From contig NZ_JAUOSB010000001.1 in NCBI RefSeq assembly GCF_030548295.1, positions 310,001 to 374,000 on the forward strand: DNA of 64,000 nucleotides, read 5' to 3'. Every line of letters starts with the position of its first letter. The first letter of the stretch is position 1. The notes under the pieces were generated by a model. The model was not told the origin of the DNA and searched no databases. It saw nothing but the letters and a program-made list of their open reading frames with translations. Made by a program: the position numbers and the translations under genes. Below, piece after piece: positions 14,830 through 40,841 of this stretch. This DNA is from Wenyingzhuangia sp. 2_MG-2023. GTDB lineage: Bacteria > Bacteroidota > Bacteroidia > Flavobacteriales > Flavobacteriaceae.

Positions 14830-14842
14830 ATTATTCTATAAT

Positions 14843-14878
14843 AAAAAAGACCTCTTTAAAATTAAAGAGGTCTTTTTT
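14843..14878. terminator. Bidirectional terminator between mpl and leuA
   Basis: A long hairpin with arms AAAGACCTCTTTA and TAAAGAGGTCTTT and a four-base loop. It has an A-run before and a T-run after it, so it can end transcripts from both convergent genes. Confidence 0.92.
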
Positions 14879-14897
14879 TATTCTATATAGATAATTA

Positions 14898-16061
14898 TCA
14901 ACTCATTTTGATGCTACTTGTTTCCATCAAAATATGAATATCTTCGTCTACAATTTCTTTTTTAGTATCTGCGTAATCCAAAAACTTAGGATAAATTTCA
15001 TCCAATTCTAATTTGGTCAACTCATATCCAACTTTTTTAGCTCTGTATGCCAGTGCTGCTCTACCACTACGTGCTGTTAACACAATAGCAGATTCTGTAA
15101 CACCTACATCCGCTGGATCCATAATTTCGTAAGTCTCTCTATTCTTAATCACACCATCTTGATGAATTCCTGATGAATGCGCAAACGCGTTAGAACCTAC
15201 AACAGCTTTGTTTGCTTGTACAAACATTCCCATATGTTCTTGTACCATTTGAGAAGTACTGTACAATAATTTTGTATTGATACCTGTATCCAAATTCAAA
15301 TCTGGATGCTGCTTCATTATCATCACCACTTCTTCTAAAGAAGTATTTCCAGCCCTTTCTCCAATACCATTAATAGTACACTCTATTTGACGAGCTCCAT
15401 TAATTGCACCTTCTATAGAATTTGCTGTAGCCAAACCTAAATCGTTATGACAGTGACAAGACAATACTGCCTTTTCTATTCCTTTAACGTTTTCTTTTAA
15501 ATATTTAATTTTAGCACCATACTCATGAGGCAAACAATACCCCGTAGTATCTGGAATGTTTAACACCGTTGCTCCAGCTTTTATGACAGCCTCACAAACT
15601 CTTGCTAAATATTCATTATCTGTACGTCCTGCATCTTCTGCATAAAACTCAACATCTTCTACAAATGTTTTTGCAAACTTAACTGCTGCAACTGCTCTTT
15701 CGATGATTGCATCTCTGTTAGAATTGAATTTGAATTTTATATGAGAATCTGAAGTCCCAATTCCAGTATGAATTCTTGGTCTTACTGCATATTTTAAAGC
15801 TTCAGCTGCAACCTTAATATCGTTTTCAACCGAACGAGTTAGTCCACAAACTGTCGCATTTTTAACCAATTTAGCAATAGCTTCTACCGATTTAAAATCT
15901 CCAGGACTAGACACCGGAAAACCTGCCTCAATAATGTCTACCCCTAAAATATCTAAACGCTCGGCAATGATTAATTTTTGCGCTGTATTTAGCTTACATC
16001 CAGGGACTTGCTCTCCATCTCTAAGAGTAGTATCAAATATTTGTACGTGATCCTTAGCCAT
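14898..16061 (-). CDS. leuA: 2-isopropylmalate synthase, short form without regulatory domain
   Basis: It condenses acetyl-CoA with 2-oxoisovalerate, the first committed step of leucine synthesis. The catalytic TIM barrel is complete: [14 protein letters not shown] at the N-terminus, the metal site [15 protein letters not shown] and the [14 protein letters not shown] loop. The protein ends at residue 387, after the second subdomain, so the ~130-residue C-terminal LeuA_dimer domain that binds leucine in the ~515-residue enzymes is absent. Short forms of this kind are usual in flavobacteria. No other leu or ilv gene is adjacent. A well-formed promoter is at 16092-16120. Citramalate or homocitrate synthase is less likely given these motifs. 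Confidence 0.85.
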
Positions 16062-16091
16062 TATTCTTGTATTTTAACTTAATTGAAGAAA

Positions 16092-16120
16092 CAAAAATAA
16101 GTGTATGACCATGCCGACAA
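16092..16120 (-). promoter_or_regulatory. leuA promoter
   Basis: On the minus strand TTG (16118-16120, within TTTTG), 18 bases, then TATTTTTG (16092-16099). It lies 30 bases upstream of the leuA ATG. No leader peptide or attenuator hairpin is visible. Confidence 0.6.
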
Positions 16121-16234
16121 AAGACTCATTAAATTATCTTTCCTTTAGCCAAAAAGACAATATATCACAAAACACCAACAAACACTAGGTAAATTAACCT
16201 ATAACTTTACGATATCCAACGCTAAAAATCTGAA

Positions 16235-16250
16235 TATTTTTGTATTTTTG
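16235..16250 (+). promoter_or_regulatory. Tandem TATTTTTG boxes before the helical-repeat gene
   Basis: TATTTTTG occurs twice back to back (16235-16242 and 16243-16250). Both copies fit the -7 consensus TAnnTTTG. The second is 25 bases before the ATG at 16276. Confidence 0.45.
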
Positions 16251-16275
16251 AACAACTCATTACCATGAAAAACCC

Positions 16276-17820
16276 ATGAGAAAAGAAAAAAAAGATCCAT
16301 TATTCTCTTTGATCAAGTCATTGAGCAAATCTGAAAAAAGACAATTCAAATTGTATGCTGGTAGACTGGGTGGAAATATTGAATCTAACTTTATGTCTTT
16401 GTTTGTGTTGATGGACAAAATAACGGTTTATGATGAAAAATTAATTCTGATCAAAACCGGAATTAAAAAACAACAGATTTCCAACACAAAAGCGCATTTA
16501 TATCGACAAATTTTAATCAGCCTCCGTTTGAGTCCTATTCATCAGAACAGCATTACTCAGATTAGAGAACAGATAGATTTTGCCACCATATTGTATACCA
16601 AAGGTCTGTACAAACAAAGTTTACGCTTGTTAGACAAAACCAAATCTGTAGCAGTAAACAAGGAACAATACAACTTGGCTTACGAAATTATTGAACTAGA
16701 AAAAGTTATAGAATCTCAATACATTACTCGTAGTATGAGTGACCGTGCGGATACTTTGGCCATTGAAGCAAAAAACATCAACCAAAAAAACGTGGTTACC
16801 AGCAAACTGTCCAACCTTTCTTTACAGTTGTACAGTTGGTTTCTAAAACATGGTTATGCTAGAAACGACAAAGACACCCATCTTGTAGAAAAATATTACA
16901 AAGATCGTATTCCAAAATACAACTTTACAGAACTTGGTTTTACAGGTAAAATGTATCTATACCAAGCCAATTTGTGGCAAGGATTTATTACCCAAGATTT
17001 TTTGTCTTGTTATAGAAACTCACAAAAACTAGTGCAGCTTTTTCACGATATGCCAGACATGAAAAAACTACATCCTGTATTTTATTTAAAAGCCGTAAAC
17101 TATTTATTAGAATCTCTATTTTATTTACAGAGAAAAGAAAAATTTCAAGAGATTTTAAATGAGTTGACGAAGGAAATTAAAGACGAAAAAAAATTCTCTT
17201 CAGAAAACACTCAAAACTTATGTTTCTTGTATTTGTACCAACACAAAATCAACTCTTTTTACCTAACTGGTGAATTTAGCAAAGGAACCGAATTTGTAGA
17301 AGAAGTATTGAGTGAACTGAACAAAACCGATAAGAAAATTGATGCTCACCACGTAATGTTATTCTATTACAAAATAGCATGTATGTACTTTGGTGCAAGT
17401 GATTATGAAAACTGCATCTACTTTTTAAATAAAATCATTAAAAACAGAGATTTAAAAATGCGTGAAGACTTACTTTGCTACACGCGTGTTCTGAATTTGG
17501 TAGCTCATTATGAATCTGGAGAAGATGAACACATTGAGGAATTGATCAAATCTACCTATAAATTTTTGTTAAAAATGGACAACCTTTATGAGGTTCAGAG
17601 AAAGATGATTAAGTTCTTAAGAAATTTAAGCAACCTGTACCCTAATCAATTGAAAAAAGCGTTTAATGAATTGTATGATGAACTTAAAGTATATGAAGAT
17701 CATCCTTATGAAAAACGTTCTTTTTTATACTTAGATATTCTTTCTTGGCTAGAATCTAACATAAAAAGTGTTCCTGTAGAAGAAATTGTAAAACAAAAAA
17801 TGCACCGCCTAAAACATTGA
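16276..17820 (+). CDS. Conserved helical-repeat (TPR-like) cytoplasmic protein, function unknown
   Basis: This 514-residue protein has no signal peptide or membrane segment. Amphipathic helix pairs run through its whole length (for example LYLYQHKINSFYLTGEFSKG and YYKIACMYFGASDYENCIYF), resembling degenerate tetratricopeptide repeats. The highly charged start (MRKEKKDPLFSLIKSLSKSE) resembles a family found in Bacteroidota, but I do not recognise a function. An upstream ATG at 16264 opens a four-codon frame (ATG AAA AAC CCA TGA) whose stop overlaps this start. The stop codon overlaps the TTG start of the pseudouridine synthase gene, so the two are translationally coupled and may share a role in RNA or translation. 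Confidence 0.75.
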   Translation: MRKEKKDPLFSLIKSLSKSEKRQFKLYAGRLGGNIESNFMSLFVLMDKITVYDEKLILIKTGIKKQQISNTKAHLYRQILISLRLSPIHQNSITQIREQIDFATILYTKGLYKQSLRLLDKTKSVAVNKEQYNLAYEIIELEKVIESQYITRSMSDRADTLAIEAKNINQKNVVTSKLSNLSLQLYSWFLKHGYARNDKDTHLVEKYYKDRIPKYNFTELGFTGKMYLYQANLWQGFITQDFLSCYRNSQKLVQLFHDMPDMKKLHPVFYLKAVNYLLESLFYLQRKEKFQEILNELTKEIKDEKKFSSENTQNLCFLYLYQHKINSFYLTGEFSKGTEFVEEVLSELNKTDKKIDAHHVMLFYYKIACMYFGASDYENCIYFLNKIIKNRDLKMREDLLCYTRVLNLVAHYESGEDEHIEELIKSTYKFLLKMDNLYEVQRKMIKFLRNLSNLYPNQLKKAFNELYDELKVYEDHPYEKRSFLYLDILSWLESNIKSVPVEEIVKQKMHRLKH

Positions 17821-18602
17821 AATATCCAAACGACAGCTATTACCTCATCCAATTTCAGTATCTAGGATTTCGTTTTCATGGATGGCAAAAACAGCCCGAA
17901 GTAAAAACCATTCAAGGTACATTGGAAAAGACATTCCGATTTATTTTTAAGCACGATAATTTTAAGACACTGGCTTCCGGAAGAACTGACACCATGGTTT
18001 CTGCCAACGAAGCTCTATGCCATTTGACCACCAAAACATTTTACGAAACAGATTGGTTGTTTCATCAACTAAACAAAAACTTGCCTCAAGATATTCAAAT
18101 CTTAAAAATAGAATCTGTAAGTGCCGATTTTGACATTTTACAGAACACCAAACAGAAAGAATATCATTATTTATTTTCCCATGGAGAGAAAATCCATCCT
18201 TTTTGCGCACCCTTGCTTACAGGAAAAAATCATGTTTTAGACATTGAACTAATGCAACAAGGAGCTAAATTATTTGAAGGTAAACACAATTTTAAAAAGT
18301 ACACCGTACGACCTAGTGAAAACACCAAATTTGTAAGAACCGTTCTATCTTCTGAAATTTTAGAAAACACATTGTATCAAGCTAATTTTTTTCCAAAAAA
18401 CAGTTTTATTTATCGAGTGAAGGGCCCTGGATTTATGCGTTATCAAATCAGAATGATGATGGGACAATTGTTTTTACTAGGCATGCACGAAACCACTTTG
18501 GAAGAAATTAAAAACTCTTTAATTTTTTGGGACACTGACCACAAGAACAAAGAAATTGCACCTGCCAGCGGATTGATTTTACACAAAAACACCTTAAAAT
18601 AA
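17817..18602 (+). CDS. TruA-family tRNA pseudouridine synthase, divergent paralogue
   Basis: TruA enzymes isomerise uridine to pseudouridine in the tRNA anticodon arm. This 261-residue protein has the TruA fold order: YLIQFQYLGFRFHGWQ at the N-terminus, the catalytic-Asp motif SGRTDTMVSA (Asp58) and FMRYQIRMMMG near the C-terminus. In canonical TruA the motif is GRTDAGVHA; here the residues after Asp differ (TMVSA), and HYLFSHG replaces the usual R-Y-x-Y segment, so it may act on a different site. The start is TTG at 17817, overlapping the preceding stop as TTGA; no ATG precedes the conserved N-terminus. A hairpin terminator follows at 18621. Confidence 0.82.
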   Translation: MKYPNDSYYLIQFQYLGFRFHGWQKQPEVKTIQGTLEKTFRFIFKHDNFKTLASGRTDTMVSANEALCHLTTKTFYETDWLFHQLNKNLPQDIQILKIESVSADFDILQNTKQKEYHYLFSHGEKIHPFCAPLLTGKNHVLDIELMQQGAKLFEGKHNFKKYTVRPSENTKFVRTVLSSEILENTLYQANFFPKNSFIYRVKGPGFMRYQIRMMMGQLFLLGMHETTLEEIKNSLIFWDTDHKNKEIAPASGLILHKNTLK

Positions 18603-18620
18603 TTCACATTATTCACCTAT

Positions 18621-18664
18621 TGGGTATTAACACTACTTTGCTTTAAGTAGTAATACCCATTTTC
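18621..18664 (+). terminator. Terminator after the pseudouridine synthase gene
   Basis: Two stacked stems, TGGGTATT/AATACCCA and ACTACTT/AAGTAGT, with a three-base bulge and a six-base loop. A short T-run follows. Confidence 0.65.
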
Positions 18665-18749
18665 AATAACTATCAACAAATCCATTAGCTTACGCATACT
18701 TCATTTTGTATTTTAGAGAAATTTTAAAATCATATTCTAGAAATATAAA

Positions 18750-19901
18750 ATGAAAATAACAAAACTATACAAGGAATTTTTTAATAGTGAAAAAACAAGT
18801 GGACTGATATTGATTATCTGTACCATCTTATCTTTAACAATCGCCAACTCAAATTCTGGCACAGATTACAACTCTTTTTGGAATATCCAATTTGCTGGAC
18901 ATAGTATTATACACTGGATTAACGATGGGCTAATGACCATTTTCTTTTTATTGATCGGTTTGGAATTAGAGCGAGAAATTTATCACGGGGAACTTTCTAA
19001 CATAAAAGACGCCTTGTTGCCAATTTTTGCAGCCCTTGGTGGAATTATAATTCCCGCTGGAATTTTTATGTACTTCAACATAGGCACAACTACTCAATCT
19101 GGAGCAGGAATTCCTATGGCCACAGACATTGCTTTTGCATTAGGAATTTTATCATTACTAGGAAACAAGGTACCCACTTCTTTAAAAATATTTTTAACTG
19201 CCTTAGCTGTTATTGATGATTTAGGAGCTATTTTAATTATTGCTATTTTTTACACCAAAGCTATTTTTTGGATAAACTTATTAATTGCCTTGTCCATTTT
19301 TGGGCTCTTGCTACTACTGAACAAACTACAAGTAAAGAAGCTTTTTATCTATTTAATTGGTGGAGTTGCTATGTGGTACTTTATGCTTAATTCTGGAGTA
19401 CACGCTACCATTACAGGAGTTTTATTGGCTTTTGCTATTCCTTATAAAGACGGTGGAGAAAATTCTGCTTCCTACAGATTACAACACTTTTTACACAAAC
19501 CGGTAGCTTTTATTATTCTACCTGTTTTTGCACTAGCAAACACGGCTATTATTTTAGACAGTAATATTAGCGAAACACTGTCTCAAAACTCTAGTATAGG
19601 AATTGCTTTGGGATTGATTGCAGGAAAACCATTAGGTATTTTTTGTCTAAGCTTTTTAGCAGTTGCTCTAGGTTTTTGTAAACTACCAGATGATTTAAGT
19701 TGGAAATCTGTTATAGGTGTTGGTTTTTTAGGAGGTATTGGCTTTACCATGTCCATTTTTATAACCTTACTTGCTTTTGATGATCAAGAAATTATCAACA
19801 AAGCAAAATTTGTAATTCTAATATCGTCTTTAATTGCTGGACTTATTGGTTTCATCAGCTTAAAATTAATTTTAAATAAAGAATGTAAAGAACAATCCTA
19901 A
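18750..19901 (+). CDS. nhaA: Na+/H+ antiporter NhaA
   Basis: NhaA expels Na+ in exchange for protons at the inner membrane and controls sodium and pH balance. The 383-residue length is normal. About 12 hydrophobic helices are visible. The ion-binding aspartate pair is present in TALAVIDDLGAILIIAIFY (helix V), preceded by MATDIAFALGILSLLG (helix IV). The C-terminal half (from HFLHKPVAF, near residue 245) recurs as a broken copy at 27363-27800, and the last part of the two copies is identical in DNA for 103 bases. The response regulator gene starts 48 bases downstream. Confidence 0.95.
   Translation: MKITKLYKEFFNSEKTSGLILIICTILSLTIANSNSGTDYNSFWNIQFAGHSIIHWINDGLMTIFFLLIGLELEREIYHGELSNIKDALLPIFAALGGIIIPAGIFMYFNIGTTTQSGAGIPMATDIAFALGILSLLGNKVPTSLKIFLTALAVIDDLGAILIIAIFYTKAIFWINLLIALSIFGLLLLLNKLQVKKLFIYLIGGVAMWYFMLNSGVHATITGVLLAFAIPYKDGGENSASYRLQHFLHKPVAFIILPVFALANTAIILDSNISETLSQNSSIGIALGLIAGKPLGIFCLSFLAVALGFCKLPDDLSWKSVIGVGFLGGIGFTMSIFITLLAFDDQEIINKAKFVILISSLIAGLIGFISLKLILNKECKEQS
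19768..19870 (+). repeat. 103-bp perfect direct repeat, copy 1 (inside nhaA 3' end)
   Basis: This stretch matches 27673-27775 without a mismatch, at an offset of 7905 bases. Both copies begin TACTTGCTTTTGATGATC and end AGCTTAAAATTAAT. The bases just outside differ (for example T/C at 19767 versus 27672). Copy 1 encodes the NhaA C-terminus. Confidence 0.95.
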
Positions 19902-19949
19902 GATGATAAACTTCTAAATTTATTCAGATTTGAAGTGTAAATTAGTCTT

Positions 19950-20627
19950 ATGAAAATTCTATTGATAGAAGACGAACAAGAATTGGCTAAAAGCATTCAG
20001 AATTACCTATCTACAAATCAATTTATTTGTGAATGGGCAAAAGATAAAACCAATGCCATAGAAAAAACAATCATGTACAATTACGATTGTATTTTATTAG
20101 ATTTAATGCTACCCGACGGAGATGGTTTAGAAATTTTAACTTCTTTAAAAAAACAACAAAAAACAGAAGGAGTAATTATTATTTCTGCTAAAGAAAGTTT
20201 AGGCACCAAAATAAAAGGTTTTCAACTAGGAGCAGATGATTATTTAACCAAACCTTTCCATTTATCAGAATTATTAGTTAGAATACAAGCATTAATTAGA
20301 CGTAAAAGTTTTAAAGGCAACAACCTTATTACTTTTAACGAAATAGAAGTTGATGTATTTTCCAAAATCTTAAAAGTTAATAATAGTCTTATTGAAATTA
20401 CCAAAAAAGAAATTGACTTACTGCTGTTTTTAATTGCCAACAACGACAAAGTTCTATCCAAAAGTGCCATTGCAGAACATCTCTCTGGCGATATGGCTGA
20501 CCTGTTAGACAATCATGATTTTGTGTACACACATATTAAAAATCTAAAAAATAAATTAAAAAAACACACCACTAACAATTACATAAAATCTGTATATGGA
20601 TTGGGTTATAAATGGCAAGATGACTAA
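19950..20627 (+). CDS. OmpR/PhoB-family response regulator
   Basis: This 225-residue two-component regulator has a receiver domain (1-~115) with acidic pocket EDE at residues 7-9, phospho-acceptor Asp51 in CILLDLMLPDG and the Lys in DDYLTKPF. The C-terminal winged helix (about 125-225) ends in SVYGLGYKW, typical of OmpR-type DNA-binding domains. Its last codons overlap the histidine kinase start. It probably controls the efflux operon that begins at 21985, where a palindrome abuts a promoter-like box; that link is inference from position. Confidence 0.92.
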   Translation: MKILLIEDEQELAKSIQNYLSTNQFICEWAKDKTNAIEKTIMYNYDCILLDLMLPDGDGLEILTSLKKQQKTEGVIIISAKESLGTKIKGFQLGADDYLTKPFHLSELLVRIQALIRRKSFKGNNLITFNEIEVDVFSKILKVNNSLIEITKKEIDLLLFLIANNDKVLSKSAIAEHLSGDMADLLDNHDFVYTHIKNLKNKLKKHTTNNYIKSVYGLGYKWQDD

Positions 20628-21885
20628 AAAATTACTACATAAAACATCCAGAATACACCTGCTATTTTCTATCATTATATTGATTGTAACAGCTCCTGTT
20701 TTTTATTTTATCACCAAACAATTATATCTAGATGATGCCGACGAGACTTTAATTCTTAGAAAAAAAGAATTTTTAAAACAGTCTCATCCTCAACTAAAAA
20801 AAAGTGACATTTCTACTTGGAACAAATTTAACCGAGATGTTAAAATTATAAAAGGTAAAAACCTTAAAAAAGACAGTATTTTTAACACTTTTTATTTTGA
20901 TGCTTTAGTTGATGAAAACGAACCTTACAGAGAGTTAAATGCACCTATTTTTATAGAAAGAACTCCTTATACTTTTACTAGCAGAATAGATTTAGTAGAA
21001 TCCGAAGATTTAATATTGAGCATTGCCGAATTATATCTGATCCTTATTTTTCTGTTCTTAATCGGACAATACATCATCAATAAAAAGTTATCTGAAATAA
21101 TTTGGAAACCTTTTTATAATACTTTAAAACAAATTGAAGCGTTTGAAATAGACAAAGCAAGCAAACCAAAATTTTTAAAAACTTCTATAGAAGAGTTTAA
21201 TCGTCTAAATCAGAGCATAGAGAATTTAATTGATAAAAATCTTCGTATTTATCAACATCAAAAGGAATTTACAGAAAATGCTGCACACGAATTACAAACT
21301 CCTCTAGCTGTATTTCAAGGAAAATTAGACTTGTTAATACAACAAGAAAACATCAGCCAAGAACATTTTGAAATTTTAACCTCTTTAAACAACAGTGTTG
21401 CGCACCTAAAAAGACTCAATAAAAATTTATTACTGTTTTCTAACATTGAAAACAATACGTTTATTGATACAGAATCTTTAATCGTAAATAATTTCTTTCT
21501 TAAAAATTTAGACTTTTTTAAAGAACAAGCAAAGGCTACAAAACTAAAGTTGCATATAGATCTTTCTACAAAACTTCACGTAGTCTCAAATCCTATATTG
21601 TTAGAAATTCTCATCAATAATTTATTTCTAAATGCTATTAAACACAATATTTTTAGTGGTAGCATTCATATTTCTATTACAGAAAACTGTCTTGCTTTTA
21701 CAAACACAGGTACAAACGTTGCACTAAACTCTGAAAAAATATTTTCTCGTTTTTCTAAAGCTGCAACATCCAAAAATGGAAATGGATTGGGATTGGCAAT
21801 TGTAAAAAAAATTACAGACCTCAACCACTGGAAAATAACCTATTCTTACACCAACCACCACCATTGTTTTATCCTTCATTTTTAA
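20620..21885 (+). CDS. Membrane sensor histidine kinase
   Basis: This 421-residue partner of the preceding regulator has two membrane helices (about 12-32 and 133-153) enclosing a ~100-residue periplasmic sensor. The H-box is NAAHELQTPLAVFQGK, with phospho-acceptor His223. The ATPase domain has N-box NNLFLNAIKHN and G-box GNGLGLAIVKKI. I chose ATG 20620, which overlaps the regulator stop (ATGACTAA); the in-frame ATG at 20596 lies deeper inside the regulator gene and adds eight residues unlike a kinase start. The signal is unknown; the linkage to an RND pump suggests a toxic compound or metal. Confidence 0.9.
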   Translation: MTKKLLHKTSRIHLLFSIIILIVTAPVFYFITKQLYLDDADETLILRKKEFLKQSHPQLKKSDISTWNKFNRDVKIIKGKNLKKDSIFNTFYFDALVDENEPYRELNAPIFIERTPYTFTSRIDLVESEDLILSIAELYLILIFLFLIGQYIINKKLSEIIWKPFYNTLKQIEAFEIDKASKPKFLKTSIEEFNRLNQSIENLIDKNLRIYQHQKEFTENAAHELQTPLAVFQGKLDLLIQQENISQEHFEILTSLNNSVAHLKRLNKNLLLFSNIENNTFIDTESLIVNNFFLKNLDFFKEQAKATKLKLHIDLSTKLHVVSNPILLEILINNLFLNAIKHNIFSGSIHISITENCLAFTNTGTNVALNSEKIFSRFSKAATSKNGNGLGLAIVKKITDLNHWKITYSYTNHHHCFILHF

Positions 21886-21895
21886 ACTCCTAAAT

Positions 21896-21913
21896 ATCTT
21901 CAAAATTGAAGAT
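21896..21913. promoter_or_regulatory. Palindromic operator candidate before the efflux operon
   Basis: ATCTTCAAAATTGAAGAT has eight-base arms around a central AA. It directly abuts the promoter-like box at 21914, so a bound regulator would sit over the spacer/-33 region. The neighbouring response regulator is the natural candidate. Confidence 0.5.
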
Positions 21914-21921
21914 TAGGTTTG
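21914..21921 (+). promoter_or_regulatory. TAGGTTTG -7 box of the efflux operon
   Basis: It matches TAnnTTTG and lies 63 bases before the tolC-like ATG. Placed right after the 18-base palindrome, it suggests that the efflux genes have a regulated promoter of their own. Confidence 0.45.
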
Positions 21922-21984
21922 TCTTTTAATATTTAAACAACCCCTAAAAAATCATCTTGTTGTTAAATAATTAAAGACATTTAT

Positions 21985-23271
21985 ATGAAGACAACTTTCC
22001 TTTTATTATTTCTCTTTGTCCTGTGTACTCAGACCAATGCATCTGCACAAAAAACTGTAGATTATTACATCCAACAAGCCATTAAACACAGTCCTTTAAT
22101 TCATGAGAAACAAAACAGAGACACCATTAATCAACTAGAAATAAAACGATTAAAATCTGTTTATTTAAAACCTACAATAAGCGCAATTGCCAATGTATTT
22201 GTAGCTCCTGTTATTGAGAGTAACAACAACAAAACAAGACTGATATTAAACCCTAAAGACCCTATTAGATATAATGGTTACGACATGAGCGTATCTAACG
22301 GAGGACAATATCAGGCACTATTAAATATATCTCAACCTTTGTTTAACAAAAAGAATTATAATACAGTTGCAGAGCAAACATTCATTGCTTCTAAACTAAA
22401 CACCTATGGAATTAAATTAAGTAAACATGATTTAGAAAAAACAGTAATAGACCAATACATATTATGCAACATAGATCAAAAACAAGTACATTCCACGCAA
22501 GAAATTGTAAACCTGCTAAACAAGCAAAAAGATATTTTAACAGAATTAACTCGTAGTGGAATTTATAAAAATTCTGATTTAACTTTATTAAAAATCACCC
22601 TTCAGACTTATCTGATTCAGCTTTCTAATTTCGAAGCTAATTATCATAAATATTTTTTTGATTTAAATATTCTTTGCGGAATTAATAGTAAAGAGATTGT
22701 CAACTTACAAAAAATCAGCCTTCATTTAAAAAAAGAAGAATCCTCTTCTCTTTTTATTCAAAAACACAAACTAGATAGTTTGGCTATCACCAATCAACAA
22801 AAACAATTTGAGTTAAAATACCTACCTCAAATCAGTTTGTATGCCAATACAGGACTCAACACTTCTTACAGCGCAACCATTCCTCACAGATTAGGAACTG
22901 GATTTGGTATTAGCCTTACTTACAATTTATGGGATGGACATCAAAAAAATATATCTCGTAGCAAAACAAAACTACTAACGGAATCTATTGCTTATTACAA
23001 AAGAAATTTTAAAAGCAATAATGATATTCGAAAATTAAAAATAAAAAAACAAGTAACCGCTTATACTGAACAAATATTAATTACAAATCAACAATTAGAA
23101 AACTACAACACTTTAATTAACAGCTATCAAAAAGAAATGATATCGGGACAACTTTCTATTGTAAATTTTATTACTGTCTTAAAAAACAAGGTTAATGCTC
23201 AACTAAACCTTGCTTTATTAAACTCACAAAAACAATTATTAATTAACGCTTACAATTATTGGAATTGGTAA
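21985..23271 (+). CDS. TolC-family outer-membrane efflux channel
   Basis: This 428-residue outer-membrane component of the tripartite pump has a signal peptide (about 1-22, ending NASAQ). Two long helical/strand repeats typical of TolC follow, with YLPQISLYANTGLNTSY and LGTGFGISLTYNLWDG as the barrel-strand segments. It would form the exit duct joined to the adaptor and RND permease encoded downstream. One base separates its stop from the adaptor ATG, so the genes form an operon. Confidence 0.85.
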   Translation: MKTTFLLLFLFVLCTQTNASAQKTVDYYIQQAIKHSPLIHEKQNRDTINQLEIKRLKSVYLKPTISAIANVFVAPVIESNNNKTRLILNPKDPIRYNGYDMSVSNGGQYQALLNISQPLFNKKNYNTVAEQTFIASKLNTYGIKLSKHDLEKTVIDQYILCNIDQKQVHSTQEIVNLLNKQKDILTELTRSGIYKNSDLTLLKITLQTYLIQLSNFEANYHKYFFDLNILCGINSKEIVNLQKISLHLKKEESSSLFIQKHKLDSLAITNQQKQFELKYLPQISLYANTGLNTSYSATIPHRLGTGFGISLTYNLWDGHQKNISRSKTKLLTESIAYYKRNFKSNNDIRKLKIKKQVTAYTEQILITNQQLENYNTLINSYQKEMISGQLSIVNFITVLKNKVNAQLNLALLNSQKQLLINAYNYWNW

Positions 23272-23272
23272 T

Positions 23273-24199
23273 ATGAAAAAAAATATTTTTATCAGCATTC
23301 TAGGAATTTATATATTTTCTGCTTGTACTCACAACTCACAAACATCATCTACAAAAACACAAAGACCTAAAACTCCTGTAGAAGTTGTTTCTATTAACCA
23401 TGGTATCATCAATCAAAACTTAGAGTTTTTTGGTTCTACTATATACTTAAAAAAGAATTTAGTTACCGCTCCTATTCCTTCTTTTATTACTAACGTACAT
23501 GTTCTTTTAGGAGATAACGTTAAAAAAGGCGACATTCTTTACACACTAAGGTCTAAAGAAAGTAAAGCTTTAGGAGATGATATTTCTCTACAAAACAACT
23601 CCATTAAAAACTTTGGTATTATTCAAGTAAAAGCATCCGCTTCTGGAATTGTAAGTACTTTAGACAAACAACAATCGGGAGATTATGTGTTAGAAGGAGC
23701 TCAACTTTGCTCTATAATAGAAAATAACAATTTAGCTTTTCAAATAAACATACCGTTTGAATATGCTCACTTGGCAAAACTTAAAAGCATCTGTAAAATT
23801 ACATTGTCCAATCACCAAGAATTTACAGCCACTTTTACCAAAAAATTAAATTCTATAAACACAACTACACAAACGCAAACCTTTTTAGCAAAAGCAACCA
23901 AAACCAAAATATTGCCAGAAGGATTATTTGTAAAATCAACTCTAATAAAAGAACAAGAAGAACAACATCAAATTTTACCCAAATCTTGTGTTTTAAGTGA
24001 TGAAATGCTACACGACTTTTGGGTGATGAAAATAACAAATGATAGTACTGCTATAAAAATCCCTGTTGTTATTGGAAACAAAAACAAGGATTCTATTGAA
24101 ATTTTAACACCTCAATTTAGCGATACCGATAAAATTATAAGCGTTGGTAATTACGGTTTGCCAGAAACAGCTTTTGTTAGTATTAACAACAAAAAGTAA
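23273..24199 (+). CDS. RND-pump periplasmic adaptor lipoprotein (HlyD/AcrA family)
   Basis: This 308-residue adaptor starts with a lipoprotein signal (lipobox around Cys18 in IYIFSACTHNS), so it is probably tethered to the inner membrane. A biotinyl-lipoyl-like domain is visible (ITNVHVLLGDNVKKGDILYT, then VSTLDKQQSGDYVLEGAQLC), with no long alpha-hairpin between the halves, followed by barrel and membrane-proximal domains. It is shorter than AcrA (~370 residues). It bridges the TolC-like channel and the RND permease on either side. Confidence 0.85.
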   Translation: MKKNIFISILGIYIFSACTHNSQTSSTKTQRPKTPVEVVSINHGIINQNLEFFGSTIYLKKNLVTAPIPSFITNVHVLLGDNVKKGDILYTLRSKESKALGDDISLQNNSIKNFGIIQVKASASGIVSTLDKQQSGDYVLEGAQLCSIIENNNLAFQINIPFEYAHLAKLKSICKITLSNHQEFTATFTKKLNSINTTTQTQTFLAKATKTKILPEGLFVKSTLIKEQEEQHQILPKSCVLSDEMLHDFWVMKITNDSTAIKIPVVIGNKNKDSIEILTPQFSDTDKIISVGNYGLPETAFVSINNKK

Positions 24200-24203
24200 C
24201 ATA

Positions 24204-27200
24204 ATGAATGCTAATCCAAAAAATTATTTTACCGCGTTTAAAAAACCCATTTTATTTATTGGTTTACTGTTAACCATTGCAGGAATTTATGCGTATACAC
24301 AAATGCAAACCAACCTTTTTCCAGAAGTTTTGTTTCCACGTATTACGCTTGTTGCAGATGTAGGTCAACAACCTATAGACCGCATGATGATTACCATTTC
24401 TAAACCTTTAGAAAGTGCCGTTAAAAAAGTAAAAGGAGTACAAGTAGTTAAAACAACTACCAGTAGAGGAAATGCCGTTATTGATGTTTTTTTTGATTGG
24501 GGAACTGATATCTATCAAGCCAAAACAAAAATAGAAGGTAGAATTAATGAAATTAAAAATTACTTACCTCCTAACGTAAACATTGCTATAGAGGCTATGA
24601 ATCAATCTACGTTTCCTGTATACGGTTATACATTGGAAAGCAACAGTTATGGATTGGTTACTTTAAAAGATCAAGCAAATTTAATAGCTCGCCCTATCTT
24701 TTCTCAAGTAAACGGAATTTCTGTTGTAATTGTACGAGGTGGTAAAAATAAAGAATTTGCAATTATTCCCAACCCTACCAAAATGAGTACTTTGGGTATT
24801 ACACCTAACACCATTATAAATGCTTTTAAAGACAATAACTATATTTTATCTAACGGAGTTGTTCAAGACTATAAACGTCTGTATTTATCACTTACCGAAA
24901 CAAGATCCAATAGTGTTGAAGATTTAAAAAACATCATTCTTAAAAGCAACGGAAATCAATTTATAAAAGTAAAAGATGTTGCCCAAGTTGAACTTAAAGA
25001 ACAACTAGAATTTATTATTGTAAATGCCAATGGTCACGATGCCGTTCTTTTAGATTTAATAAAACAACCAGGTATAAATCTTATTGATTTTGCTAAAGAT
25101 TGCGAAATCAAAGCTCAAGAAATTCAGAAACAATTACCCAAAGGAGTTACTCTAAAACCTTACTACAATCAAGCTTCTTTTGTAGGAAACAGTATCCAAA
25201 GTGTCATTAAAACCATTTACGAAGGATTGTTTTTAGCCATTTTAGTAATGATTCTTTTCTTAAAATCTTGGAGAGCAAGTTTGGTTGTTACTTTAACCAT
25301 TCCTATTACACTTGCCTTTTCTATTCTGGTTTTAAACATGGTAGATATCAGCATCAATATCATGTCGTTAGGAGCCATTGCTGCCTCTATTGGTTTAATT
25401 ATAGATGATGCAATTGTAATCATTGAGCAAATTTACAGAAAACACGAAGATCACCCTGAATTAGACAAATTCTCCGTAGTAAAACACGCTATCAAAGAAC
25501 TGTTTCCTGCAATGATTGGTTCCTCTTTAGCCACCATTGTTATTCATTTCCCTTTTGGATTGATGAGTGGTTTAGCTGGTAGTTTTTTCAAAGAATTATC
25601 AGACACTATGCAATTAACTATGGTCACTTCTTTTTTAGTCACCTGGTTATTACTACCTGTTTTTCATATTATTATTGGCTTTAAACAGTCTAAAAATAAA
25701 GTTCACATCTCCGAAGAAAAAAGATTACAGCAATTAAGCTGGTTGACCTGTTTTTTTAAAAAACCTATTTTCGCCATTATTCTTGTCTTTGGATTTGGTA
25801 TTTCAGCTTGGTTTAGTTTTCAAAAACTAGAAACTGGTTTTTTACCTGATTTGGATGAAGGTGCCATTGTATTAGATTATTATATGCCTCCTGGAACGTC
25901 GTTAAAAGAAACAGATAGAGTATTAAAAGAGATTGAAAAAATTATCATTGCGCATCCTGAAGTAGAAACCTACAGCAGAAGAACAGGAATGGCCATGCAT
26001 TTTGGAGGTGTACCACCAAATTATGGAGATTATTCCATTCAACTAAAACAACACCACACACAAACTACGGCAGACGTAATAACCGATTTAAGAAATGATA
26101 TTTCGGCTAAATACCCTGTATTAAATATAGAGTTTGGACAACGTATTGCTGATTTATTGGGTGATTTAATGAGTACAGCTCAACCTATTGAAGTAAAGTT
26201 TTTTGGAGATAATTATGAAAACCTCCAACATATTTCACAAAAAGCGGAAGAAATTTTAAGCAATATACCAGGTATTGAAGACATTGATAATGGTTTACGT
26301 ATGGCAGGTTCTTCTATCATTTTTAAACCTAGGCAAGAGTTATTGAGTCAATACAACATCTCTTTGTTAGATTTTCAAAATCAGTTGGCTATTTGTACCA
26401 ACGGAGTTTCATTAGGAATCAATGCAAATCAACCCACACCTTCTCCTTCACAAGCCGCAATGACTTCTGGCCTACAAGTAGGAGAAATACAAGATGGAGA
26501 ACAAATGAGAAGAACCATTATGAGATATGCTGATTTTGAATCTAACGATATTGAAAAAATAAAAAGACAACTTATTTTTTTACCTAATGGAACAACCAAA
26601 AGAGTAGATTTTTTCTGTGATATTGAAATAAATCCAGGCGAAACAGAACAACAAAGAGAAGATTTAAAATCAGTAGTAGTTTTAACAGCTCGTTTGGACA
26701 ATCGTGATTTAGGAAGTGCTATTACCGAAATTCAAAACAAATTAAACACAACTTTAGCATTGCCCAAAGGATATAACATTGTATACGGAGGTGCTTATTC
26801 CGAACAACAAAAATCATTTAAAGAACTAATGCTTATTTTACTCACAGCATCACTATTGGTTTTTGGTGTTTTTATGTTCTTGTTTAAAGAATGGCTACTT
26901 TCTACTATTCTATTATTTACATCAATGATGGGAATTACAGGTTCAATTTTAGCATTGTATTTAACCAACACTCCTTTAAATGTAAGTAGCTATACTGGTA
27001 TTATTATGATTGTTGGAATTCTAGCTGAAAATGCCATTTTTACCATTTCTCAATACCAAGCCAATATGAAAAAGAATAACAATATAGACTTGGCCATTAA
27101 TTATGCCATCGCATTAAGAATTCGACCTAAATTAATGACCGCAATTGGAGCTATTTTAGCGTTAATGCCTTTGGCTTTAGGAATTGGTTTGGGTGCACAA

Positions 27201-27320
27201 ATGCAACAACCTTTAGCCATTGCTGTTATTGGTGGATTTGTGGTTGGTTTGCCTATGCTGTTAATTGTACTGCCTAGTTTTATAAGGGTTTTGTATAAAC
27301 GAAAAAAAGCTCTTTTATAA
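24204..27320 (+). CDS. RND-family efflux permease
   Basis: This 1038-residue proton-driven inner-membrane pump has 12 membrane helices and two large periplasmic loops. The first-half motif GLIIDDAIVIIEQ carries the aspartate pair Asp401/Asp402 (like AcrB 407/408). The second-half helix reads GILAENAIFTISQ, with Glu942 where AcrB has its relay Lys940. It therefore mixes drug-type (HAE) and metal-type (HME) features and its substrate is unsure. I chose ATG 24204 because it follows the adaptor stop by four bases and gives the usual N-terminus (NYFTAFKKPILFIGLLLTIAG); an earlier in-frame ATG at 24144 lies inside the adaptor gene. Confidence 0.92.
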   Translation: MNANPKNYFTAFKKPILFIGLLLTIAGIYAYTQMQTNLFPEVLFPRITLVADVGQQPIDRMMITISKPLESAVKKVKGVQVVKTTTSRGNAVIDVFFDWGTDIYQAKTKIEGRINEIKNYLPPNVNIAIEAMNQSTFPVYGYTLESNSYGLVTLKDQANLIARPIFSQVNGISVVIVRGGKNKEFAIIPNPTKMSTLGITPNTIINAFKDNNYILSNGVVQDYKRLYLSLTETRSNSVEDLKNIILKSNGNQFIKVKDVAQVELKEQLEFIIVNANGHDAVLLDLIKQPGINLIDFAKDCEIKAQEIQKQLPKGVTLKPYYNQASFVGNSIQSVIKTIYEGLFLAILVMILFLKSWRASLVVTLTIPITLAFSILVLNMVDISINIMSLGAIAASIGLIIDDAIVIIEQIYRKHEDHPELDKFSVVKHAIKELFPAMIGSSLATIVIHFPFGLMSGLAGSFFKELSDTMQLTMVTSFLVTWLLLPVFHIIIGFKQSKNKVHISEEKRLQQLSWLTCFFKKPIFAIILVFGFGISAWFSFQKLETGFLPDLDEGAIVLDYYMPPGTSLKETDRVLKEIEKIIIAHPEVETYSRRTGMAMHFGGVPPNYGDYSIQLKQHHTQTTADVITDLRNDISAKYPVLNIEFGQRIADLLGDLMSTAQPIEVKFFGDNYENLQHISQKAEEILSNIPGIEDIDNGLRMAGSSIIFKPRQELLSQYNISLLDFQNQLAICTNGVSLGINANQPTPSPSQAAMTSGLQVGEIQDGEQMRRTIMRYADFESNDIEKIKRQLIFLPNGTTKRVDFFCDIEINPGETEQQREDLKSVVVLTARLDNRDLGSAITEIQNKLNTTLALPKGYNIVYGGAYSEQQKSFKELMLILLTASLLVFGVFMFLFKEWLLSTILLFTSMMGITGSILALYLTNTPLNVSSYTGIIMIVGILAENAIFTISQYQANMKKNNNIDLAINYAIALRIRPKLMTAIGAILALMPLALGIGLGAQMQQPLAIAVIGGFVVGLPMLLIVLPSFIRVLYKRKKALL

Positions 27321-27362
27321 TTATTTATGGAATAAGTGATAACATCACAAGGTGATTCGTAA

Positions 27363-27800
27363 TTATACCCATTTATATTTGTTTGTATACACTTTTTACA
27401 CAAGCCGGTAGCTTTTATCATCCTTCTTGTATTTGCTTTAGCAAACACTGCTATTGTATTAAGTGGTGATATTGGAGAAACTTTATCGCAAAACTACAGT
27501 ATTGGTATTGCCTTAGGATTAATTATAGGAAAGCCATTGGGAATTTTTGCTATTACATTTTTAGCGGTATCCCTTAAACTTTGCAAACTCCCTAGTGATT
27601 TAAATTGGAAGTCTATTATTGGAGTAGGATTCTTAGGAGATATTGGTTTTACCATGTCTATTTTTATTACCCTACTTGCTTTTGATGATCAAGAAATTAT
27701 CAACAAAGCAAAATTTGTAATTCTAATATCGTCTTTAATTGCTGGACTTATTGGTTTCATCAGCTTAAAATTAATACTAAAGAAAGAGTGTAAAGAATAA
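27363..27800 (+). pseudogene. Truncated second nhaA (C-terminal part only)
   Basis: The frame is open from 27363, and NhaA similarity starts at 27390 with HFLHKPVAF, matching the intact NhaA from about residue 245 to its end. About 19 of ~137 aligned residues differ by eye, all before the final ~40. The N-terminal half with the ion-binding aspartates is missing, no ATG precedes the homologous part, and a conserved GGIGFTMS motif is changed to GDIGFTMS. It is therefore a relic rather than a working antiporter. A -7-like box TATATTTG (27374-27381) sits just before the truncation point. It follows the RND gene by 42 bases. Confidence 0.88.
27673..27775 (+). repeat. 103-bp perfect direct repeat, copy 2 (inside the truncated nhaA)
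   Basis: It is identical to 19768-19870 and in the same orientation. Together the copies bracket about 7.8 kb holding the two-component and efflux genes. Divergence is clear both upstream and downstream of the repeat, which points to recombination or gene conversion rather than recent whole-gene duplication. Confidence 0.95.
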
Positions 27801-28046
27801 AAAAACACTGTACATAAAATTACTCAGCCTTAAAATCCCAGTTTACAAAAGATTAAAAATGAATACATTACTAAAACAAACCCAACTATTTCATCATTAA
27901 GAACCTATAACTACTTAATTGAAAATAATGTTTTTAGTCAACTTAGGATTAAGAACAGCCAAACAACAGTAATTCTATCCATAAAAAACTCATAATCAAC
28001 AATTAGAAAAACACTTTCACCTATATTTATATTTAAATAAAAAATG
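27801..28046. other. AT-rich intergenic stretch without a gene
   Basis: Between the nhaA relic and the rpsO promoter I see no frame with coding character, no tRNA-like fold and no strong terminator. The only open frames are of about a dozen codons. With the rpsO leader, the gene-free span reaches 28109. Confidence 0.7.
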
Positions 28047-28054
28047 TATCTTTG
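28047..28054 (+). promoter_or_regulatory. rpsO promoter -7 box
   Basis: TATCTTTG fits TAnnTTTG exactly. It predicts a transcript start near 28058-28061, right at the base of the leader hairpin, and a 5' leader of about 50 bases. Confidence 0.6.
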
Positions 28055-28060
28055 CCGTCC

Positions 28061-28079
28061 GATTCTCAGAGAGAGAATC
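28061..28079 (+). promoter_or_regulatory. rpsO leader hairpin
   Basis: GATTCTC/GAGAATC forms a seven-pair stem with a five-base loop at the very start of the predicted transcript. Ribosomal protein S15 often represses its own mRNA through leader structure, so this may be such a site or simply a 5' stabilising stem. Confidence 0.45.
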
Positions 28080-28109
28080 CGCATAATAATCATTTACATA
28101 AATATTAGC

Positions 28110-28379
28110 ATGTCATTATCAAAAGAAGCAAAAGCAGAGATTTTTGCAAAACACGGAAAGTCAGCAACTGACACAGGTTCTACAGAAGCACAAATTGCAT
28201 TATTCACAAAAAGAATTGCAGACTTAACAGAACACTTAAAAGTAAACAGAAAAGATTACAACACTCAACGTTCATTAGTACGTTTGGTAGGTAAGCGTAG
28301 ATCTTTATTAGACTACTTAACAAAAGTAGACATCTTACGTTACCGTGCAATTATCAAAGAATTAGGATTAAGAAAATAA
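28110..28379 (+). CDS. rpsO: 30S ribosomal protein S15
   Basis: This 89-residue protein binds 16S rRNA early in small-subunit assembly and forms a bridge to the 50S subunit. The sequence shows the family segments TGSTEAQIALFTKRI and RRSLLDYLTKVDILRY. I chose ATG 28110 because it gives the standard length and N-terminus (MSLSKEAKAEIF); the in-frame ATG at 28044 overlaps the promoter. It is followed by its own terminator and then pnp, an order also found in Escherichia coli. Confidence 0.97.
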   Translation: MSLSKEAKAEIFAKHGKSATDTGSTEAQIALFTKRIADLTEHLKVNRKDYNTQRSLVRLVGKRRSLLDYLTKVDILRYRAIIKELGLRK

Positions 28380-28387
28380 TTCACACT

Positions 28388-28417
28388 AAAGAGAGGCTTA
28401 ACCGCCTCTTTTTTTTA
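28388..28417 (+). terminator. rpsO terminator
   Basis: The stem AGAGGC/GCCTCT has a six-base loop and is followed by eight or more T. Confidence 0.88.
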
Positions 28418-28572
28418 TTTTAGACACTTCACACTGAATCACATTCAGTTGGACACATAAAGAAGTCAGAATTTAATTTCTGAGTCCATTGTTAACAAAA
28501 AGACCCTACAACAACACAACATTTTTGTTCAACAAACATCGTTGAGAAACCTCAACACAAAAACATTATTTT

Positions 28573-30804
28573 ATGATACCAAAGGTATTTAAAGAAGTTA
28601 TCGATTTAGGAGACGGGAGAACCGTATCTATCGAAACAGGAAAATTAGCAAAACAAGCACATGGTAGTGTTGTCGTACAAATGGGTAAGGCAATGTTGTT
28701 ATGTACTGTAGTATCTAACTACAAACAATCTGATGTAGACTTTTTGCCCTTAACAGTAGATTACCGTGAAAAGTTTGCTGCTGCAGGTAAATATCCAGGT
28801 GGTTTCTTTAAAAGAGAAGCTAGACCTAGTGATGACGAAGTTTTAACCATGCGTTTGATAGACCGTGTATTACGTCCTTTATTCCCTAAAGACTACCATG
28901 CAGAAACTCAAGTAATGGTACAATTGATGTCTCATGACCCTGAAGTAATGCCAGATGCATTGGCTGGATTAGGAGCTTCTGCTGCTATTCAGTTGTCTGA
29001 CATCCCTTTTGAAACTCCAATTTCTGAAGCTCGTGTAGCTAGAGTAAACGGAGAATTTGTAATCAATCCAAGTCGTGCTCAATTGGCTGAATCTGATTTA
29101 GACATGATGATTGGAGCTTCTGCAGATTCAGTAATGATGGTAGAAGGTGAGATGGATGAAATTTCTGAAGAAGAAATGGCTGATGCAATCAAATTTGCTC
29201 ATGAATCTATCAAATTACAATGTGCTGCTCAAGTTCGTTTGGCTGAAGCTTTTGGGAAAAAAGAAACTCGTGAATACGATCAAGCTGAAGAAAACGAAGA
29301 ATTAGCTGCTAAAATCAAAGAATTAACATACGACAAATGTTATGCTATTGCTGCTAAAGGAACTTCTAAGGTAGAAAGAACAGATGCTTTTGCAGTTGTA
29401 AAAGAAGAAGTAAAAGCTGCTTTTACGGAGGAAGAATTAGCAGAATACGGAGACTTAGTTGGAAAATACTTTAACAAATCTCAAAAAGAAGCAGTTCGTG
29501 AATTAACACTAGCGGAAGGTTTACGTTTAGATGGTCGTAAGACTACTGAAATTAGACCAATCTGGGGAGAAGTAGATTATTTACCTTCTACTCACGGATC
29601 TTCTATTTTTACTCGTGGAGAAACTCAAGCATTGGCTACTGTAACTTTAGGAACTTCTAGAGATGCAAACATTATAGATTCTCCAACAAACGAAGGAGAA
29701 GAAAAATTTTATTTACATTACAACTTTCCTCCTTTCTGTACAGGAGAAGCAAGACCTTTAAGAGGTACTTCTCGTAGAGAAGTTGGACACGGTAACTTGG
29801 CACAACGTGCATTAAAAGGAATGATTCCTGATAGCTGCCCTTACACTGTAAGAGTTGTATCAGAAGTATTAGAATCTAACGGTTCTTCATCTATGGCAAC
29901 AGTATGTGCTGGAACTATGGCTTTGATGGATGCAGGAGTTCAAATTACAAAACCAGTTTCGGGTATTGCAATGGGATTAATTTCTGATGGTGATCGTTAT
30001 GCTGTATTGTCTGATATTTTAGGTGATGAAGATCATTTAGGAGATATGGACTTTAAAGTAACAGGTACTGCTGATGGTATTACTGCTTGTCAGATGGATA
30101 TTAAAGTAAAGGGATTGTCTTACGAAATTTTAGTAAATGCTTTGAAACAAGCTCGTGAAGGACGTATGCATATCTTAGGAAAAATTACAGAAGTAATTTC
30201 TACTCCTAATGCAGATGTAAAATCTCACTCTCCTAAAATGATTACTAGAGTAATTCCTAACGATTACATTGGTGCTTTAATTGGACCTGGAGGGAAAAAC
30301 ATTCAAGAATTACAAAAAGTTACAGGATGTACTATCGTGATTAACGAAGACCCTGTTACTACAGAAGGAATTGTTGAAATTTTAGGTACCGGACAAGAAG
30401 GTATTGATAAAGTTTTAGCAAGTATTGAATCTATGTTATTTAAACCAGAAGTAGGAAAAGCTTACAAGGTTAAAGTAATTAAGATGTTAGACTTTGGAGC
30501 TGTTGTAGAATATTTAGATGCACCAGGAAACGAAGTTTTATTACACGTAAGTGAATTAGCTTGGGAACGCACAGAAAACGTTACTGATGTAGTAAATATG
30601 GGAGACGAATTTGAAGTAAAATACTTTGGAAAAGACCCTAAAACTCGTAAAGAGAAAGTTTCTAGAAAAGCTTTGTTAGAAAAACCAGAAGGTTTTAAAC
30701 CAAGACCACCAAGAGAGAATAATGATCGTGGTGGACGTGATAACAGAGGTAGAGACAATCGTAGAGACGATAGAAAACCTAGAGAAGAGAAAAAAACTGA
30801 ATAG
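28573..30804 (+). CDS. pnp: Polyribonucleotide nucleotidyltransferase (PNPase)
   Basis: This 3'-5' phosphorolytic exonuclease degrades mRNA and trims RNA. At 743 residues it has the usual layout: two RNase PH domains (the second with [17 protein letters not shown] and the active-site segment [17 protein letters not shown]), then a KH domain ([16 protein letters not shown]) and an S1 domain ([19 protein letters not shown]). An Arg/Gly/Asp-rich basic tail of ~35 residues (for example [15 protein letters not shown]) extends past S1 and may add RNA binding. It has a 190-base leader region after the rpsO terminator. Confidence 0.97.
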
Positions 30805-30826
30805 TTTTTAACTTTTACATATATAG

Positions 30827-30857
30827 AATCCCTTTCAATTAATTTTGAAAGGGATTT
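30827..30857 (+). terminator. pnp terminator
   Basis: The stem AATCCCTTTCAA/TTGAAAGGGATT has a short AT loop and is followed by a T-run. Confidence 0.88.
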
Positions 30858-30945
30858 TTATTTTGAATAGCATTCCGGTTATAACTACCAAAATTTTTGA
30901 TTTGTTTAACTTTAATCCCAAAACAATAAAAATCATAAATAAATA

Positions 30946-32706: not shown

Positions 32707-32775
32707 AGAGTTTTATAATTAAAATAAAAAAACACAGAAACATCCAAACAACTGATCAATTTTAATTTTTCTACC

Positions 32776-32816
32776 TAAAAAAAAAAAGCACTTCATTTAT
32801 GAAGTGCTTTTTTTAT
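32776..32816. terminator. Bidirectional terminator between the MutS-family gene and glyS
   Basis: The stem AGCACTTCAT/ATGAAGTGCT has a two-base centre, a long A-run before and a T-run after. It serves both convergent genes. Confidence 0.92.
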
Positions 32817-32838
32817 ATATACAATTTGATGTCTATAA

Positions 32839-39818: not shown

Positions 39819-40841
39819 TTATAACAAATCTCTTAATCTTTGCGCTGCTCCTTCTGCAGTAATGTCTCTCTGTGGAGTTCCAAACATTTCGTAACCTACC
39901 ATAAATTTCTTAACGGTTGCACTTCTTAACAACGGTGGATAAAAACTCATATGCCAGTGCCAGTGAGCATTATCACCTCCGTCTGTGGGAGCTTGGTGAA
40001 TTCCACTAGAATACGGGAAAGAAGTATTGAACAACTTATCGTAAACTTTTGTCAAAACAGAAATTGCCTCTGCATACAACACTTCTTCTTCTTCTGTCAT
40101 ATCCAAAATAGAATTTTGTTGATTTTTTGGAGCAATCATCGCTTCAAAAGGCCAAATAGCCCAAAAAGGAATCAAAACTACAAAAGCATCATTTTCAAAA
40201 ATGATACGCTCTCTATCTCCATTTAATTCTTGTGCCAAGTAATCACCTAACAAACTAGATTTTTTATCGTCAAAATATGCTTTTTGAGTTCCATCTTTTT
40301 TAGATACCTCGTTTGGCAAACTAGACTGAGACCAAATTTGTCCGTGTGGATGAGGATTACTACATCCCATTACTGCTCCTTTGTTTTCAAAAATCTGAAC
40401 ATATTTAATAGCATCGTTTGCACCAATTTCTTTGTACTCACGTTGCCAAGTTTTTACAACTTCTGTAATTCCAGGAACATCCATATCTGCCAAACTTTTA
40501 GAGTGGTCTGGACTAAAACAAATTACTTTACAAATACCTGTTTCGCTTTGCGCTTGCAACAAACCGTCGTTTACTTCAAAAGAAGGCGAATCTTTTTGCA
40601 ATGCAGCAAAATCATTTGTAAAAACATAAGTTCCGGTGTATTTTGGATTTACATCACCAGAAATTCTTGTATTTCCAGCACACAAATAACAAGACTCATC
40701 ATATTCAGGTCTTTTTTCGTTATTTACAGCTTCGTTTTGTCCTTGCCAAGGACGTTTAGATCTATGAGGAGAAACTAAAACCCATTCTCCTGTTAAAATA
40801 TTCAGTCTTTTGTGTGAGTAATCTTCTAAATTCTTATCCAT
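39819..40841 (-). CDS. galT: Galactose-1-phosphate uridylyltransferase
   Basis: It swaps UMP between UDP-glucose and galactose 1-phosphate in the Leloir pathway. The 340-residue protein shows the active-site HPH triad in [11 protein letters not shown] (the first His carries the uridylyl group) and the zinc pair CYLCAGN. It also has [14 protein letters not shown] and the [11 protein letters not shown] metal-site region. It is the last gene of the operon regulator-epimerase-galK-galT, 28 bases after galK. No galE lies in the window. Confidence 0.96.

Follow-up and report, generated by a model that had tools for sequence, protein, structure and literature searches.

A two-component-regulated RND efflux cassette between nhaA and rpsO in Wenyingzhuangia, bordered by a mosaic nhaA fragment that resembles congener DNA

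How did a regulated efflux cassette come to lie between two nhaA 3' ends that share a perfect repeat? The question is raised by a 64,000-nucleotide stretch of the genome of Wenyingzhuangia sp. 2_MG-2023 (the window; positions 310,001 to 374,000 of contig NZ_JAUOSB010000001.1, assembly GCF_030548295.1). A cassette of about 7.4 kb, encoding on one strand a response regulator, a sensor kinase, a TolC-type protein, an adaptor and an RND permease, follows an intact nhaA (copy 1) and is itself followed by a 5'-truncated second nhaA (copy 2), rpsO and pnp (Table 1). The account that we consider reasonably probable combines gain of the cassette, patchy import of DNA resembling that of the congener genome G006, and later gene conversion of 103 bp.

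The two nhaA 3' ends form a gapless duplication of 412 bp (19484-19895 and 27389-27800) with 83% identity, along which the mismatches are distributed in three segments, numbered 1 or 2 by copy: 67 over 284 positions in segment A, none over 103 in segment B, and five over the 25 positions of segment C up to the stop of copy 2. The perfect direct repeat noticed in the original prediction is real and exactly 103 bp long, with an offset of 7,905 bp between its copies, whereas its description as the last bases shared by the two genes has to be given up: differences resume after the run, so that it is bracketed on both sides. An identical stretch with differing paralogous sequence on either side is the pattern of a gene conversion tract, and at the upstream mismatch rate of segment A (entered as 66/284) about 1e-10 runs of at least 103 bases would be expected by chance in 412 positions. 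The end of the truncated gene was correctly placed in its earlier delimitation (27363-27800) but not its start, because nhaA homology begins at 27389 and the preceding bases are merely open frame. Over 94 residues, the translations of A1 and A2 are 80.9% identical, consistent with the earlier estimate of 19 differing residues of ~137 upstream if most differences fall there. In the whole genome, the nhaA protein query matched two places only, the intact gene and copy 2; a DNA query covering 18600-20000 yielded one extra match (46 bp, E 7e-4), to the bases just upstream of nhaA.

Segment A2 appears to be of foreign origin. The same-genus comparison comprised six other genomes (G001-G006), and against G006 A2 shows 95.0% nucleotide and 91.5% third-position identity over 94 codons, compared with 78.6% and 60.0% for A1. 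Among 646 comparison windows of 94 codons, A2 ranks sixth in third-position identity to G006, the median being 61%. These windows come from 117 of 371 open frames, with antisense frames left in and frames dropped that had less than 60% protein identity, fewer than 100 codons or no match in the part of G006 compared. Two of the five windows above A2 belong to the pnp patch described below, two to a frame at position 40250, and one lies elsewhere in the genome. In the frame at 40250, third positions agree better than the whole, as expected of an antisense frame. Bases private to G006, counted for nhaA against four relatives and for other genes against five (G004 lacks nhaA), are shared by A2 in 18 of 20 cases, as compared with 7/21 for A1, 9/32 for the intact 5' part, 1/4 for B and 0/2 for C; the figures for leu, g514 and truA are 11/39, 8/39 and 12/36. 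By Fisher's test A2 differs from A1 (p = 0.0003) and from the pooled background of 40/146 (p ~9e-8), an excess of G006-private variants far above background that marks A2 as a recent import from a congener. In a seven-row tree of segment A, copy 2 joins G006 at 99/99, the remaining inner branches being unsupported. The mosaic that had been attributed to recombination or gene conversion is therefore borne out by the presence in copy 2 of a segment imported from a congener; on its sequence, copy 2 is a chimera consisting of a G006-like piece, then 103 bp matching the resident gene, then the end.

The opposite assignment, with copy 2 native and the intact nhaA as the incomer, is ruled out by the third-position identity of A2 (91.5% against the median of 61%), the intact nhaA being at background. 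The intact protein is 81-89% identical to NhaA of G001, G002, G003 and G006, where the neighboring genes are the same. A simple tandem duplication is ruled out as well, since it would give even likeness throughout and the copies are uneven. A2 has replaced a proline (LPVFALAN to LLVFALAN) and a glycine (LGGIGF to LGDIGF) that are both kept in the six other rows of the tree; such changes, to leucine and to aspartate, would be expected of a dead fragment.

G006-like sequence reappears downstream of copy 2. In the patch in the 3' part of pnp, 17/19 G006-private bases are shared, compared with 6/25 in the remainder of the gene (p ~2e-5, uncorrected for the patch borders having been picked after inspection of the profile). 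In rpsO, the first part shares 2/2 and the rest 0/3, and the first 40 codons (from ~28110) are 97% like G006, with just two informative sites. A native origin of the duplication can be proposed from the same pattern: a perfect duplication would have formed at cassette entry, e.g., by single-crossover integration of a circle carrying an nhaA 3' end, and cassette-free G006-like DNA would later have overwritten A2 and part of pnp, leaving the 103 bp over. Such a history accounts for the identity of the 103 bp with no need of gene conversion and fits the replacement of part of pnp, away from the cassette. However, it needs a further change, given that mismatches between the copies return beyond the 103 bp (5/25) and that copy 2 shares 0/2 G006-private bases there, and the leftward limit of the import would have to coincide with the cassette; we regard it as unlikely, although deserving of serious thought. 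In the favored account, with import followed by conversion, B2 was probably refreshed from copy 1, because A2 has changed in the manner of a dead fragment, whereas B2 is the same as in copy 1. B2 is 84% identical to G006 at the nucleotide level, and A2 and B2 differ in their share of private bases (p = 0.018).

Two further observations were made. Outside this locus, a stretch near 16793 of the minus strand of L171 has 92.6% third-position identity to G006, a possible further import. After pnp, at window positions 30946-32706, lies what we take to be a MutS-like gene, which is common to G001 and G003 (73%); no match of like identity was found in the compared stretches of G006 and G002, and that of G004 ends 0.4 kb past pnp.

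The corresponding site in congeners bears on the gain of the cassette. Four of the six (G001, G002, G003 and G006) carry a single nhaA between truA and rpsO without cassette genes there, so that the empty sites sought by the original prediction do exist; a layout common to all relatives with a full, diverged second nhaA was not seen in the congeners examined. In G004 (complete, one contig), there is no nhaA match and truA adjoins rpsO (L185 8008-9181), an indication that nhaA itself comes and goes between these genes; the draft of G005, which is 85% complete, gave no nhaA match. Among the matches listed, no orthologue of the permease was found in the congeners: in five of the six the best reached 25-26% identity, and the best in G005 had an E value of 1e-39. 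Relatives of the cassette are scattered farther afield, across Bacteroidota. The permease has matches with E <1e-200 in 16 of 395 genomes of the order, including this one, and three of the others reach at least 60% identity. Two peptide patterns, run against named genomes, detected 49 loci with 47-76% identity (best segment), in genera that include Lacibacter, Arcicella, Flavobacterium, Dyadobacter, Cytophaga, Chryseobacterium, Spirosoma, Hymenobacter and Prevotella. Together with three loci from whole genomes, two of them on the same contigs as listed loci, 52 loci were compared, and 42 have a best hit to each of the five cassette genes, with orthology putative, in particular for the regulator and the kinase; in some of the 42, these two genes are turned or moved downstream. 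Sequence resembling nhaA occurs 6-8 kb away in 3/52 loci and is absent from the others apart from the present one. Because the congener sites are empty and the cassette relatives patchy, the cassette looks acquired between nhaA and rpsO in this lineage, loss from five other lineages with a readable site being a less simple alternative. Together with the imported segment in copy 2, the four empty sites support the earlier proposal that the nhaA locus was the acquisition site.

In one of the relatives, an Arcicella metagenome-assembled genome (L090, 12763-15231) with a 75% identical RND protein, an nhaA 3' fragment lies ~6 kb from the pump (62% identity over residues 252-377) and is cut within ~10 codons of the cut in copy 2. 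This fragment abuts a serine resolvase gene and a 467-aa open reading frame that has no Pfam match. A parallel to copy 2 with a common breakpoint was not upheld, given these two neighbors and since no terminal repeat joining both loci was found, and the position of the fragment near the cassette may be a coincidence.

The left border of the cassette can be placed closely. The region 19908-19987, which comprises the leader and the first 38 coding bases, is 76% identical over 80 bp to Flavobacterium sp. 7A, the species whose permease is 75% identical, and the leader region is 72% identical over 79 bp to Niastella vici; homology sets in at 19908-19909, and the nhaA stop is at 19901. Since this onset directly follows the stop, the acquired DNA has a sharp left border and the cassette comes with a leader of its own. 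On the right, the border lies at or before 27389, the start of the foreign nhaA; between 27290 and 27400 no notable match was found in the loci compared. No integrase, transposase, relaxase or replication gene is present among the five cassette genes (three antisense open reading frames of 90-115 aa fell outside the scan), and no inverted repeat pairs of at least 25 nt (seed 14) were detected in 14000-34000. The nhaA 3' end as an integrase target was set aside, as there is no integrase among the five genes.

These borders also bear on Campbell-type integration, in which a circle carrying a donor nhaA 3' end and the cassette would have recombined once with the resident nhaA, the 103 bp representing the exchange point with heteroduplex repair and the reverse exchange being possible. 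The scenario predicts that copy 2 is foreign 5' of the exchange and that the 3' ends differ; both are seen, and relatives of the permease are encoded on at least four Bacteroidota plasmids (58.7-67.7% identity, the next best among the matches listed being ~33%); reversal would restore a whole nhaA of 381 aa and release a circle of 7,905 bp. The G006-like pnp patch is nevertheless left unexplained, the end of copy 1 should be donor-like but shares 0/2 G006-private bases, and a replication gene is missing from the five cassette genes, which together make this scenario quite improbable.

A repeat of 103 bp is able to tangle a short-read assembly graph, so an assembly artefact also has to be weighed. 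The genome is a draft of 253 contigs, and a piece carrying the cassette, derived from a minor strain or from an extrachromosomal element, could have been joined into the chromosome at the repeat, the same reads being compatible with a chromosome plus a circle. Against this, the region lies inside an 842-kb contig of a genome that is 99.99% complete with 0.41% contamination, and the G+C content of the cassette (30.1%) is near that of the genome (32.2%); we find such an artefact barely credible.

The favored history can then be formulated as follows. A two-component-regulated TolC/adaptor/RND cassette would have been gained between nhaA and rpsO, probably brought by the same G006-like DNA as the truncated nhaA, which would be the remnant of a second, foreign gene. 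This DNA would have recombined homologously in discontinuous patches, covering A2 and the 3' part of pnp, with the start of rpsO as a possible third patch. Because the right end of the cassette joins the foreign nhaA directly, arrival on the same donor molecule as A2 is the simplest solution. Later, gene conversion would have transferred 103 bp from copy 1 to the remnant. We infer when and in which direction the conversion took place, as well as DNA uptake as the route. Several points weigh against this history. No genome was seen with the junction between the cassette and the truncated nhaA, so that we infer the joint arrival. Between copy 2 and rpsO, likeness to relatives is confined to the part next to rpsO (46 bp in G006, 88 bp in G004), and the end of copy 2 shares none of two G006-private bases. 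The contrast between B2 and A2 (1/4 versus 18/20) rests on four informative sites, and the pnp patch was delimited after the profile had been seen. ComEC- and DprA-type families were found, but they are matched in 10 and 11, respectively, of the 14 control genomes as well, E. coli among them, and are weak evidence for competence. Finally, a wrong join at the 103-bp repeat is possible in a draft of 253 contigs.

Table 1. Features of the nhaA-rpsO region and of pnp (window coordinates)
Feature	Position	Strand	Remarks
Intact nhaA, resident copy (Na+/H+ antiporter, 383 aa)	18750..19901	+	PF06965 461 bits; TIGR00773 above cut-off
Segment A1, part of intact nhaA differing from copy 2 (67/284)	19484..19767	+	7/21 G006-private variants, i.e. 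background
Segment B1, 103 bp identical to 27673-27775	19768..19870	+	
Segment C1, end of intact nhaA	19871..19901	+	5/25 aligned bases differ from end of copy 2
Cassette leader	19908..19949	+	Homology to other cassettes starts here, 7 bases after nhaA stop
OmpR-type response regulator	19950..20627	+	PF00072 and PF00486
Sensor histidine kinase, NCBIfam PorY family	20596..21885	+	NF052314 422.7 bits (cut-off 350), from residue 12
TolC-type outer-membrane efflux protein	21985..23271	+	PF02321
RND periplasmic adaptor	23273..24199	+	PF13437 above cut-off; TIGR01730 66.5 bits, under cut-off 94.9
RND efflux permease, 1038 aa from ATG	24204..27320	+	PF00873 619 bits; TIGR00914 469.6 bits
Segment A2, 5'-truncated second nhaA, G006-like import	27389..27672	+	Identity, private variants, tree
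Segment B2, 103 bp identical to B1, not G006-like	27673..27775	+	
Segment C2, end of copy 2 including stop	27776..27800	+	
rpsO, right flank of site	28044..28379	+	Open reading frame from first ATG
Second G006-like patch, 3' part of pnp	30253..30732	+	17/19 private variants; 2.6 kb beyond copy 2

The cassette itself has the composition of an RND tripartite efflux system, with an ACR_tran permease, an adaptor and a TolC-type protein in one gene run. A named RND subfamily, either heavy metal (CusA/CzcA) or multidrug, was not reached: the scores are 469.6 against a cut-off of 701 for TIGR00914 and 444.5 against 1250 for NF033617. The kinase scores above the cut-off of the PorY family, a type IX secretion name, yet it is encoded beside an efflux pump and a regulator of the OmpR type; the name given to the family may be too broad. 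Its first-ATG start overlaps the regulator gene and the true start is probably further in; similarly, the proper start of rpsO is probably near 28110. A scan for promoters and terminators gave 53 promoter-like sites against 48.2 expected and one terminator-like site against 3.5, and was not used as evidence.

A modeled exchange between the two 103-bp repeats leaves a whole 381-residue nhaA and a 7,905-bp circle. Excision of the cassette by RecA, and with it the instability considered in the original prediction, is possible on paper, its loss is plausible, and re-entry at any related nhaA would be conceivable; if the repeat does recombine, loss of the cassette would be clean and would leave nhaA intact. 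The empty sites belong to other species and so point to gain (or loss) over evolutionary time, not to ongoing excision. It is a very doubtful extension that the nhaA 3' end serves as a homology landing pad, at which a recombinase-free cassette moves between congeners by RecA exchange and takes a species-specific piece of nhaA along with each move.

Each kind of event proposed here is already well known, and the transfer is of an ordinary horizontal kind: the locus adds a further instance of an efflux cassette gained by horizontal transfer, of homologous import in patches from a congener and, probably, of gene conversion. Its value lies in an unusually legible record of how a regulated efflux cassette, itself devoid of mobility genes, can enter a chromosome, in which the likely donor clade, the patch borders and a probable later conversion tract can be read at one locus. 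In PMC, no paper on a truncated nhaA was found, and titles and abstract openings gave no account of a locus combining nhaA, a direct repeat and an efflux system in Bacteroidetes.

Among known processes, homology-facilitated illegitimate recombination, in which DNA is gained through homology on one side and a homology-free joint on the other, is close to the present case (PMC3240628). Here, too, foreign DNA appears to be held by homology on one side (truncated nhaA, rpsO and pnp), and the other joint is without visible homology, the cassette homology beginning 7 bases past the nhaA stop. It differs in that two nhaA 3' ends with an identical 103 bp are present and that the left joint has no donor for comparison. 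For natural transformation in Bacillus subtilis, donor DNA has been reported to end up in discontinuous patches (PMC13344027), and the neighboring donor segments at 27389-27672 and 30253-30732 are alike in this respect; those, however, were experiments in B. subtilis, whereas the present case is one natural genome with transformation as a putative route. Finally, the cassette shares all five genes (regulator, kinase, TolC, adaptor and RND) with the two-component-regulated RND efflux sets of Bacteroidota but differs from them in its position, as only here, among the 52 loci compared, is the set located between nhaA and rpsO.

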